This document shows positions 9,417-58,992 of a DNA stretch of 64,000 nucleotides, piece after piece. The stretch is taken from assembly GCF_023540835.1 (NCBI RefSeq), contig NZ_JALKCU010000002.1, positions 496,001-560,000 on the forward strand. The letters are read 5' to 3'. The stretch is from Marivivens geojensis. GTDB lineage: Bacteria; Pseudomonadota; Alphaproteobacteria; Rhodobacterales; Rhodobacteraceae. Position 1 is the stretch's first letter. Each line of letters opens with the position of its first letter. A program made the position numbers and the translations under genes. The notes beneath the pieces were generated by a model, which was not told the origin of the DNA, did no database searches, and was given only the letters and a program-made list of their open reading frames with translations.

Positions 9417-10541
9417 ATGGGACTTCCAGTCAAAGAACAGGTGAAATACTGGGGCATCGCCACAGCTATTTTGGTGTTTTTGCTCTATTTTCTCGGCAAC
9501 GTGATCCTGCCCTTCGTTTTGGGCGGAGCGGTCGCCTACATGCTCGACCCCGTTGCGGATCGGTTGGAGCGGGCGGGCTTTAGCCGCGCGGCCTCTGTCG
9601 GAGTGATCAGTATCGGCGCAACGATCCTATTTGTCATCGCGGCTCTCTTGATCATACCCGTGCTGATCCAACAAACCGCGTCGCTCTTTAATTTCATTGG
9701 TACATCGGTCGATACTGCCCCCACAGTTCTGCGTGACCTCGACAAATGGCTGACCGATACCTTCCCTGCCCTCGCGCAGAATGACATCACCTTGTCCGGC
9801 AGCCTCAAAAACGTGGCCGCCACCGTGCAGAGCAAAGGCGGCGATTTCCTGAATGGTGTGCTCTCTTCAGCGATGAGCCTCATCAACGTAATCGTCCTCT
9901 TGGTCGTCGTGCCCGTTGTGGCGGTCTATTTGCTCTATGATTGGGACAATATGGTGGCCCAGATCGACAGCCTTTTGCCGCGCGATCATTTGAGCCAAAT
10001 CCGCGGCATCGCGACCGAGATCGACAAAACGCTTGCTTCTTTCATCCGTGGGCAAGGCACCGTCTGCCTGATCCTCGGCATTTTCTACGCGGTAGGCCTC
10101 ATGGTCGTGGGCCTTCAGTTTGGCCTCGTCGCAGGTGCGATTGCGGGGCTTTTGACTTTTATCCCTTACGTCGGCGCTCTGGTCGGTGGTCTTTTGTCGA
10201 TTGGCCTCGCGCTGTTTCAGTTCTGGAATAGCGTTGAAGTGATCGACGGCGCGACCACGACCTTTGCCACCGATTGGCTGCGGATCGGGATTGTCGCTGT
10301 GATCTTTGGCGTCGGCCAGTTCCTTGAGGGGAACTTCCTAACGCCGAAACTCGTCGGGAGCTCAGTCGGCCTGCATCCTGTTTGGCTGATCTTTGCGCTG
10401 TCGGTCTTCGGTACATTGTTCGGTTTCGTCGGGATGCTCGTCGCAGTGCCGGTGGCTGCGGTAATCGGCGTTGTGGCCCGTCACGCCATCCGAAGCTACA
10501 AAAATGGACGCCTCTATCGGGGCTTTAGCGATACCGAATGA
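9417..10541 (+). CDS. AI-2E/PerM family membrane protein
   Basis: A 374-aa polytopic protein of the AI-2E transporter (PF01594/PerM) family: two N-terminal helix pairs, an amphipathic region (about residues 100-150), then further helices including LTFIPYVGALVGGL, the family's conserved P-Y-V-G-A block, and a C-terminal PKLVGSSVGLHPVWLIFAL segment. The ATG at 9417 is preceded by GAGGGG; a GTG at 9399 is possible. Family members export various small molecules or ions, and the substrate cannot be read from the sequence. It overlaps hdaA by 4 bp (ATGA), an arrangement seen in other alphaproteobacteria. Confidence 0.9.
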   Translation: MGLPVKEQVKYWGIATAILVFLLYFLGNVILPFVLGGAVAYMLDPVADRLERAGFSRAASVGVISIGATILFVIAALLIIPVLIQQTASLFNFIGTSVDTAPTVLRDLDKWLTDTFPALAQNDITLSGSLKNVAATVQSKGGDFLNGVLSSAMSLINVIVLLVVVPVVAVYLLYDWDNMVAQIDSLLPRDHLSQIRGIATEIDKTLASFIRGQGTVCLILGIFYAVGLMVVGLQFGLVAGAIAGLLTFIPYVGALVGGLLSIGLALFQFWNSVEVIDGATTTFATDWLRIGIVAVIFGVGQFLEGNFLTPKLVGSSVGLHPVWLIFALSVFGTLFGFVGMLVAVPVAAVIGVVARHAIRSYKNGRLYRGFSDTE

Positions 10542-11203
10542 CCCCGCGCCAACTGTCCTTTGATCTGCCCCCTAACGTTGCGTTGGGCCCTGACGACTAT
10601 TTTGTGTCAGAGGCCAATGCCCACGCCTATGTCATGGTCACGAACCCTGACGGCTGGGCCGATGGCAAGCTTGCCCTGATCGGCCCCAAGGGAAGCGGCA
10701 AAAGCCACCTTTCGCGGGTGTTTCAGCACCTCACAGGTGCCACCGTTTGGAAGGCTGGGGACATTGGCGCGACGCTCGACCTGCCTTCCTGCCCGATTGT
10801 TCTTGAGGACATGGAGGCCCTGTCTCCCCAGTCCGAAGAACCTTTGTTTCACCTGCACAATCACCTGCGCGCACAGCGATTACCGCTGCTGCTGACCGCG
10901 ACAACACCGCCGAGCCGTTGGAGCATCGCCCTCCCCGACCTTGCTAGCCGTATGCAAGCAGCACCCACCGTCCACATCGCGGACCCCGATGATCGTCTGC
11001 TGAGCGCCGTGTTGATGAAGCATTTTGTCGATCGCCAACTGACGCCGAAACCGGCGCTGATCTCATACCTCGCGGGTCGGATTGAACGGTCGTTTTCCGC
11101 CGCTGACGACATCGTTTCGGCCCTCGACAAAGAGGCTCTTGCGACGGGGCAACCGATTGGAATTAAACTAGCTGGTAGGCTGCTGGACAATCCATCGGAA
11201 TAG
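10538..11203 (+). CDS. hdaA: DnaA-related regulator HdaA
   Basis: A 221-aa short AAA+ protein related to DnaA domain III but lacking the DnaA DNA-binding domain. The N-terminus carries RQLSFDLP, a beta-clamp (DnaN) binding motif of the Hda type, then a P-loop [12 protein letters not shown], a Walker-B-like IVLEDME segment, and a sensor-2-like region near the C-terminus. HdaA with the loaded clamp stimulates ATP hydrolysis on DnaA and so prevents over-initiation of replication. It is translationally coupled to the PerM-like gene and lies 49 bp ahead of ppk. Confidence 0.9.
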
Positions 11204-56859: not shown

Positions 56860-56989
56860 GTCTCATCTCTCCTGATCGCGGGCCGTTATCAGAACGGCAC
56901 ATCGCGTGAATTCGTATGAAGCCCGCCTTTTACAGCCGCCCGCCCCCGAGTCAACCGCTATTGTAGCGGGAAACGTAAAGATTATGCGC

Positions 56990-57360
56990 GGACAGCCTAT
57001 AAGCCGGATTTTGTCCAAGGGTTGCCCCTCTGGATGACCATTCATCTAGACGACCTGTTACCAGACCGCCTCTAGCTGCCAACCCGGACCTCTCGGGGTT
57101 AGGCGTCCCTGCCCCATAAGAGGCGCGAGGTCCCTATTTGGCATTGCACCCGGTGGGGCTTGCCGTGCCGGTCCTGTTGCCAGTCCCGCGGTGGGCTCTT
57201 ACCCCACCGTTTCACCTTTTCCCTGCATGCAGGGTAGTCTGTTCTCTGTGGCGCTTTCCCTGGGGTTACCCCCGCCGGGCGTTACCCGGCACCGTGCCTT
57301 CTGGTGTCCGGACTTTCCTCGGACCCAAAGGCCCGCGGTCATCCAGCCATCCGCGCGTCA
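56990..57360 (-). ncRNA. rnpB: RNase P RNA (bacterial class A)
   Basis: On the minus strand the 5' region contains GAGGAAAGTCCGGAC (57311-57325 region), the P4/J hallmark of RNase P RNA, and the 3' region contains GGACAAAATCCGGCTTATAG (56996-57015 region), the conserved 3' partner. The middle has many GC-rich complementary segments (e.g. GGTAACGCCCGGCGGGG near 57275) consistent with stems P7-P12. About 370 nt, a little short of the usual 380-400, so the ends are approximate. It processes pre-tRNA 5' ends. Confidence 0.95.
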
Positions 57361-57456: not shown

Positions 57457-58992
57457 ATGAAAACAGCAGTTCATGTCGTTTGGTTCAAACGCGATTTGCG
57501 GGTCGAGGATCACGCCCCGCTGTATGCGGCATCGCTGCTTGGCCTGCCCATCGTGCCGCTGTACATCGTCGAACCTGACCTATGGCGCCAACCCGACGCA
57601 TCTCGTCGACACTGGCATTTTGTCAACGACTGCCTGAGCGAACTTAACGAACATCTCACCCAGCTCGGCCAGCCATTGATCATTCGTATCGGATCAACGG
57701 TCGACGTGTTAGCCCAGTTGCACGCAGAACATGGGATCGCTGGCATTTCATCTCACGAGGAGAGTGGGAACGACTGGACCTATCAGCGTGACCGAGCCGT
57801 GATCCGCTTTTGCCGTTCTCAGGGTATCTCTCTGCAAGAGTTGCCATCAAATGGCGTTGTTCGCCGACTCGCCTCACGCGACGATTGGGCTGCGATCCGC
57901 AACAGTCGGATGGCCGATAAAATCATCCCAAAGCCGCAGCGCCTCGCGCCCGCACCACATGTGCGCTCTGCACCTCTGCCCCAAAAAAACGACCCAATGT
58001 TCGGTCCGCCCCTGAGCGGCAGCACACAAACTGGCGGTCGACGTGCCGCCGTCGCAGACCTAAGATCATTTCTGTCAAACAGGTCACGCGGCTACCTGCG
58101 CAATATCTCTTCCCCCCTTGGGTCGGACTATCATTGCTCTCGCATGTCGGCCCATCTTGCGTGGGGCACGATGTCGGTTCGCGAGGTCGTCCAATCCATC
58201 AGCAAACGGCGGAACCAACTCAACACGGTCGATAGGGCGTCCTACAGTCGAAATCTCTCCGCCTTTGGATCGCGTCTCGCGTGGCGGTGTCATTTCGTCC
58301 AGAAAATCGAGGACGAGCCCTCGATTGAGACACACTGTATGCATCCTGCGTTCGAAGCTCTTGACCGACACGACGACAGCCATCCCCATTTCACTGCTTG
58401 GGCCGAAGGAAGCACAGGTTTCCCTTTTGTCGATGCCTGCATGCGGAATTTGACCGCGACAGGCTGGATCACCTTTCGCATGAGGGCAATGTTGGTCAGT
58501 TTTGCCAGTTACCAACTCTGGCTCGACTGGAGGGTTACGGGACAACACCTCGCGCGGCTGTTTACCGACTATGAGCCGGGCATTCACTACAGCCAACTGC
58601 AGATGCAATCGGGGGTTACGGGGATCAATACGATGCGGGTCTATAATCCCATTAAACAGTCCCAAGAGCACGATCCAGACGGTCGCTTTATCCGGAAATG
58701 GGTTCCTGAACTGGCTCACCTTCCAAACGAAGCAATTCATACCCCTTGGACTTGGGAAAAAACGTTTCTGGATCGGTCCGATTTTGTGCTGGGCCGTGAT
58801 TACCCAATGCCGATTGTCGACCTTGCCTCGGCAACCAAAACGGCCAAAGATCAAATTACGTCGATCAAACGCGGCATCGGATTTAGCGATGTGGCGCGGG
58901 GGGTGCACCAAAAGCTAGGCAGTCGGAAGCGCCCATCGACCCGACGAAAAGCGGTAAAACGGGCAAACCCTGACCAACTTAGCCTGTTCTAA
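57457..58992 (+). CDS. photolyase/cryptochrome-family flavoprotein, divergent
   Basis: A 511-aa protein with an N-terminal Rossmann antenna-type domain (starting [20 protein letters not shown]) and a C-terminal FAD-binding helical domain (about residues 220-480, [20 protein letters not shown]). By ungapped hand alignment from D-W358-R to E. coli PhrB D-W359-R, Asp372 is kept (Asp371) and Arg344 is kept (Arg343), but Asn378, the FAD N5 contact, is His377, Trp382 is Leu381, and the Trp306 position is not Trp. The final residues are N-P-D-Q-L-S-L-F, ending in a consensus beta-clamp motif after a basic linker. It is likely a light-dependent DNA repair enzyme or a cryptochrome; which is open. Confidence 0.85.

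Follow-up and report, generated by a model that had tools for sequence, protein, structure and literature searches.

The window, as the whole analysed stretch of 64,000 nucleotides of Marivivens geojensis DNA is called here, contains a gene for a flavoprotein of the photolyase family (Table 1). Pfam searches identified a DNA_photolyase domain at residues 7-135 (E 2.4e-25) and a FAD_binding_7 domain at residues 272-467 (E 2.5e-69) of the encoded protein. A divergently oriented RNase P RNA lies just upstream of the gene, and the two ORFs on its other flank, recognised by eye, are presumably gatC and gatA. An AlphaFold2 model computed from 49 sequences reached a mean pLDDT of 86.9. Most blocks of the body scored between 80 and 98, five lay at 62-79 and the block 481-490 at 64. 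A Foldseek search of the PDB returned the class III photolyase 4u63, which we take to be Agrobacterium PhrA, as the best match (TM 0.79, 26% identity), and the PDB sequence matches were other photolyase and cryptochrome classes. Both the domains and the fold place the protein in the photolyase/cryptochrome superfamily. Its nearest named relative among the best 80 of 168 relatives is found in Marivivens donghaensis (92% identity), and a genome of the same genus (G117) holds a copy that is likewise 92% identical.

Table 1. Features discussed in the text, with positions numbered within the window
Feature	Position	Strand	Basis or remark
QLSFDL near the N-terminus of the ORF named HdaA in the original prediction (ORF 10538-11203)	10550-10567	+	hexapeptide form of the motif
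RNase P RNA (class A)	56984-57354	-	
Photolyase-family flavoprotein CDS, 511 aa plus stop	57457-58992	+	Pfam domains
Folded body, residues 1-487, last helix 476-487	57457-58917	+	AlphaFold2 model
Arg273 codon (Glu in class I enzymes)	58273-58275	+	alignment
Phe340 codon (Asn in class I enzymes)	58474-58476	+	alignment
Basic, probably disordered linker, residues 488-506	58918-58974	+	8 of 19 residues Lys or Arg; low pLDDT; linker entropy
QLSLF, predicted beta-clamp (DnaN)-binding motif, C-terminal	58975-58989	+	kept in relatives; matches canonical QL[S/D]LF
TAA stop of the photolyase gene	58990-58992	+	directly after QLSLF

The original prediction had stated that the photolyase ends in exactly QLSLF, and both the coordinates and the letters agree with the translation of the ORF. 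The linker that precedes the pentapeptide had been described as basic and probably flexible, which is borne out by its content of lysine and arginine and by the low confidence of the model in this region. The block means over residues 491-511 are 48, 46 and 39, and residues 495-501 and 506-511 fall below 50, which points to an exposed and flexible segment around the motif. QLSLF is also, as had been noted, an exact match to the canonical clamp-binding motif QL[S/D]LF; PMC13254535 gives this motif and two revisions of it, Q-phi-x-[LM]-[FL] and the longer Q-phi-x-[LM]-x-[FL]. The tail of the protein thus presents the clamp-client motif, whether this is defined as QL[S/D]LF or as Qhx[LM](x)[FL].

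The host genome was inspected for the clamp and for other potential clients. DnaN (L283:1501-2616) has 372 amino acids and keeps the segments TDGHRL, FPDY and VMPM, which we take to line the clamp pocket in E. coli DnaN. The claim that HdaA in the window also has a clamp motif was confirmed for the ORF to which this name had been given, and its hexapeptide QLSFDL is in addition the ending of three photolyases from other genomes (L199, L205 and L244). A frame for a DNA polymerase III alpha subunit (L303), which is cut by the end of the locus, contains QVSLF at residue 934 as one of four loose matches. No QLxLF-like motif was detected with the loose pattern in the two host Y-family polymerases, probably DinB (L301) and ImuB (L302); these expected clamp clients may reach the clamp in another way. 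A search at the DNA level for Q[LF]x[LF]F followed by a stop codon (or TGG) gave seven matches in the genome, and only the photolyase match ends a long ORF.

Conservation of the terminal motif in bacterial relatives

Relatives were collected from named contigs (best 80 of 168) and from genomes of the family, class and phylum to which the host belongs. Three surveys of these genomes contributed up to 30 loci apiece and 80 further loci were added by place, so that the loci used are part of the matches listed. The resulting set comprised 244 loci (L001 and L003-L245, with L002 excluded as a class I photolyase). Before the count, one sequence at a contig end (L179), two with an internal stop (L222 and L227) and one with a low score (L234) were dropped, and the 240 sequences were reduced to 228 distinct ones, the window's own among them, by merging identical entries.

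A wider motif pattern, Q[LMI]x[LFM](x)[FLI] within the last 12 residues, was found in 171 of the 228 distinct sequences, including the window's own, versus 0.13% of shuffled tails. The published consensus taken literally was present in 117/228, versus 0.17% of shuffles. Orthologues had been expected to keep a QLSLF-type end while the linker varies, and this is the case among the 59 sequences with at least 55% identity (the window's included), of which 56 carry the wider pattern and 50 the published consensus. Sorted by identity to the window's protein, the published consensus occurs in 43/49 (at least 58%), 15/41 (50-58%), 51/91 (45-50%), 7/29 (40-45%) and 1/18 (below 40%), and these uneven counts are partly due to Ile or Phe replacing the consensus F/L or L/M. 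When each cluster at 62% identity was represented by one sequence, the motif was detected in 49 of 86. It is also present in proteins that are only 36-50% identical to the window's. If the last 40 residues are considered, 176/228 sequences contain the wider motif, which reaches the very last residue in 133 of them and is followed by one or more further residues in 43. Endings observed include QLSLF, QLPLF, QLTLF, QLDLF, QIDLF, QLQLI, QLSLDL, QLKLDL, QMSFDF and QLSLPF. They represent both the penta- and the hexapeptide form, each of them known, and the two forms are spread across the tree of relatives.

Entropies were calculated for the same 59 sequences, which had been chosen by identity irrespective of the motif. 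Values of 1.02, 1.16, 0.60 and 1.30 bits were obtained for motif positions 1, 2, 4 and 5 and 2.65 bits for the free position 3, and the linker, anchored at its right end, showed 1.9-3.4 bits per position. The exact ending QLSLF is shared by 28 of the 228 distinct sequences, again with the window's included, and is encoded by 24 different 15-mers. It is therefore the protein sequence that is conserved, and conservation of the DNA was rejected as an explanation.

The motif is not universal in the clade. Degenerate variants only were seen in 31/228 tails, and in 21/228 no recognisable motif was found; many of the latter end soon after the body. The tails without the motif include those of alphaproteobacteria with small genomes of 1.4-2.0 Mb (families f8 and f25) and of a group with Vibrio and Salinivibrio. 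A tether would thus appear to be dispensable in some lineages. Some genomes hold two copies of the gene: in G136 both photolyases (L090 and L166) end in a clamp motif (QLSLF and QLMLF), and in G1073 (L165 and L233) one ends in QGSLFD and the other lacks a clear motif. A near relative with 68% identity over residues 187-511 is encoded on a contig (L294:79-1038) from the viral collection IMG/VR and ends in TQLSLF. A phage origin of the gene was considered and rejected, as phage records matched in only 10 cases and none at 60% identity or above.

Tails of other proteins served as controls. Within the bacterial family of the host, the motif was found in none of the 30 tails of class I photolyases (30 loci out of 53 genomes with a match) and in none of the 22 FeS-type (PF04244) tails, for which 0/20 is the safer count since L313 and L326 appear to be read in the wrong frame. 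A further control consisted of the remaining open frames with 150 codons or more, taken from the window and from the fetched loci; this set includes spurious frames, and 318 of 2280 had been set aside from it as photolyase-like. Here 2 of 1889 had a motif-type tail with either pattern. Conservation and control tails together led to the rejection of a chance occurrence, and the class I and FeS tails, which lack the motif, to the rejection of a general feature of photolyases.

The surroundings of the gene were also surveyed. The photolyase gene is often followed directly by one for a small, Cys-rich protein of the DUF2256 type (for example L284:4142-4279 and L286:7442-7690). A regular expression detected this protein for 65 of the 225 sequences with enough downstream DNA, and the window's gene is not among the first twelve matches listed. 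SOS boxes of the form GTTC-N7-GTTC were counted upstream of 23/228 genes, versus 1.2 expected from shuffles, and upstream of 0/23 class I genes; many of the counted boxes fall within the coding start or overlap it (positions -3 and -14), and 10 are clean upstream sites by eye. LexA-type boxes stand just upstream in a minority of loci (L111, L144, L150, L162, L163, L244 and a few others) and could tie the gene to the SOS response in those lineages. As many of the boxes coincide with the coding start and the 300 bases that precede the window's gene contain none, we draw no conclusion on regulation.

Active site and haloarchaeal members of the clade

The class I active-site residues, which we take to be E. 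coli E274 (residue 275 with the first Met) and N341 in the usual numbering, are replaced in this clade. Arg stands at the place of Glu and Phe at the place of Asn, each in 90 of 91 family rows, in all seven haloarchaeal rows and in the sole Nostoc row; all five class I rows have Glu and Asn. Where the E. coli enzyme has WQW, the window's protein has LQM, a haloarchaeal example WQY and Nostoc WQM. Compared with E. coli, the stretch reads Thr339, Phe340 ... Ala344, in an alignment that was built without any (6-4) sequence. Eukaryotic-type (6-4) photolyases have a pair of active-site histidines. With Arg273 and Phe340, the window's protein does not belong to the class I CPD photolyases as defined by Glu and Asn. 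Five NCBIfam models matched the protein, each with a score below its cut-off, among them the class I equivalog NF007955 (185.6 bits, cut-off 506) and the DASH cryptochrome model TIGR02765 (166.2 bits, cut-off 317.05). No PF04244 domain, presumably the model of the FeS photolyases of the PhrB/CryB type, was detected at E <=0.001.

The host genome possesses in addition a class I gene (L002/L246) and a PF04244 gene (L320), and in genomes of the same family a class I photolyase was found in 53/61 and the FeS type in 22/41. Many residues are invariant across the 49 aligned sequences of the clade. The light repair originally proposed for the protein would follow from its fold and family and not from its active-site residues, which differ from those of class I CPD photolyases. 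Judged from the conserved domains and the clamp-type tail, repair is retained as the most likely function.

More distant relatives were found in haloarchaea. The set was drawn from plasmids and holds seven of the eight records that matched; the remaining record belongs to a species already represented. Three of the seven come from one genus, and L298 is annotated in two pieces. Two of these relatives were measured and are 31-32% identical to the window's protein. The haloarchaeal PIP box is given as QxxLxxFx in PMC7776575. Tails of this type were observed in six of the seven sequences (GQASLDAFE, GQSSLDAFE, GQASLDAFEKN, GGQASLSDYS, DQQQLADYS and QQRGLDAYTETDKE), and the seventh, from Natronomonas, has no PIP-type ending. 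The pattern QxxLxx[FY] within the last 16 residues, which describes these 6/7 tails, occurs in 0.08% of shuffles, and Tyr takes the place of Phe in three of the six (L297, L298 and L300). Six of the seven haloarchaeal relatives thus carry the ending of archaeal PCNA clients. The bacterial clamp pattern was found in 0/7 haloarchaeal tails, and the PIP pattern in 2/228 bacterial tails and in 0/8 archaeal class I or DASH control photolyases, among which are one truncated frame (L330) and two identical tails (L328 and L329).

In a tree built with a quick method, with SH-aLRT support only and with long branches flagged, the haloarchaeal and bacterial sequences were united with a support of 80 alone and 98 together with Nostoc, and the bacterial clade itself received 99. 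Class I, E. coli, Thermus and one DASH sequence fall outside this union. At the C-terminus of the single Nostoc relative, neither the bacterial motif nor a PIP box is present. A DinB-annotated gene adjoins this relative on the Nostoc plasmid (L290:1-427); its frame ends in IQLPLFEYVMNEL and holds a clamp-type motif. As the sliding clamp of haloarchaea is PCNA and the tails there are PIP boxes, the type of motif appears to follow the type of the host's clamp. Of all the results, this exchange speaks most strongly for a clamp tether and against other interpretations of the tail.

A putative sliding-clamp tether

The protein very probably represents a separate photolyase/cryptochrome clade whose disordered C-terminal tail serves as a tether to the sliding clamp. 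This reading is favoured because the motif is kept in relatives, because the two published forms alternate and because a PIP box is present in haloarchaea. Against it stand the tails with a degenerate or no recognisable motif, the uneven fit to the published consensus, the two host Y-family polymerases and the Nostoc relative without a motif, the substituted active site, and the small haloarchaeal sample with its moderately supported place in the tree. What the sequences show is the motif, its position, its conservation, its clade specificity and the haloarchaeal PIP box, and from there we infer binding to DnaN or PCNA, a location at forks and the repair of a UV photoproduct. The terminal QLSLF would occupy the hydrophobic DnaN pocket, with the linker, basic and approximately 19 residues long, allowing the flavin domain to reach nearby DNA. 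Tethered in this way, the enzyme would accumulate at replication forks, at post-replicative gaps and at leftover clamps. UV photoproducts are expected to block synthesis at these sites, and reversal by light could precede the arrival of translesion polymerases if the protein is a repair enzyme.

Other explanations have to be weighed against a clamp-tethered repair enzyme. The tail could bind the clamp and the protein nevertheless be a cryptochrome-like sensor of light or redox state that adjusts replication or polymerase exchange. The change from the class I Glu and Asn to Arg and Phe (90/91 rows each) and from WQW to LQM would suit a sensor, and the class I and FeS genes of the host could cover ordinary repair. 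Against a sensor, the protein retains both photolyase domains, many residues are invariant across the 49 aligned sequences, repair enzymes make more natural clients of the clamp, and other photolyase classes repair DNA using other active-site residues. A sensor is regarded as unlikely. The terminal residues might also be a different signal, such as a protease degron or another docking site, that resembles a clamp motif by accident. Short hydrophobic C-terminal tags are known degrons, and the exactly terminal position of the motif in 133/176 sequences would be in line with one. A degron would hardly be expected, however, to need the Gln, to alternate between Q-h-x-h-F and Q-h-x-h-x-L/F and to read QxxLxx[FY] in Archaea, and in 43/176 sequences the motif is followed by extra residues. 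This explanation is quite improbable.

Least credible is that the motif is a neutral relic of common descent, even though the relatives do share ancestry and some lineages are without the motif. Against such a relic, the adjoining linker diverges freely, 24 DNA words encode QLSLF in 28 cases and the motif persists in proteins with an identity of only 36-50% to the window's.

A broader reading than the clamp tether itself is possible and is offered tentatively. In this case, a clade that spans Bacteria and Archaea and is distinguished by its Arg/Phe active site would ride on whichever clamp the host provides, by means of a beta motif in bacteria or a PIP box in haloarchaea. Driven by light, it would belong to the replisome and would remove or sense photoproducts at the fork through undescribed photochemistry.

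In the usual picture, photolyases scan DNA by diffusing freely. If the tether is conserved, light repair would compete directly with polymerases and translesion synthesis for the same pocket of the clamp. Tethering could also explain why the gene is retained beside a class I photolyase in the host genome, and, as the motif changes with the clamp of the host, the idea can be put to the test in Bacteria as well as in Archaea. The statement that no clamp-tethered photolyase is established agrees with a literature search, which, subscription journals and preprints aside, gave no report of one.

Comparison with known systems

Among the known photolyases, the E. coli class I enzyme PhrB (1dnp) has the same two domains and 25% identity to the window's protein in the fold match, and the class I paralogue in the host genome is 28% identical to it. 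Class I CPD photolyases differ in their tails, which lack the clamp motif, and in their Glu/Asn active site. The alignment with the class III enzyme 4u63 ends at profile position 472, corresponding to chain residue 496 of the 498 that were crystallised, before the region of the tail. The bifunctional CPD/(6-4) enzyme PhrSph98 groups with class II and keeps Glu and Asn (E310 and N384), and it and its relatives are found, like the window's clade, in Proteobacteria and cyanobacteria (PMC9649867). Assignment to this bifunctional group was rejected, as the published description, with E310 and N384, sets it apart from the Arg and Phe found here.

Among the known clamp clients, the haloarchaeal relatives resemble the archaeal PCNA clients of PMC7776575 in their endings QASLDAFE, QASLSDYS and QQQLADYS, and the photolyase passages of this source mention no PIP box on a photolyase. 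The transposases of the IS1634 family carry a C-terminal clamp motif in a bacterial beta and an archaeal PCNA version (PMC4549789), which provides a precedent for both versions within one protein family. IS1634 transposases and other beta-clamp clients share with the photolyases described here a Qhx[LM](x)[FL] motif at the very end of the protein and the same two forms of it. They differ in the body to which the motif is attached, which is a photolyase-type flavoprotein in the present case; no photolyase or cryptochrome is named as a beta-clamp client in the consulted passages of PMC4549789 and PMC13254535. Photolyases and clamp clients are each known, and it is their combination, in two domains of life, that appears to be new.
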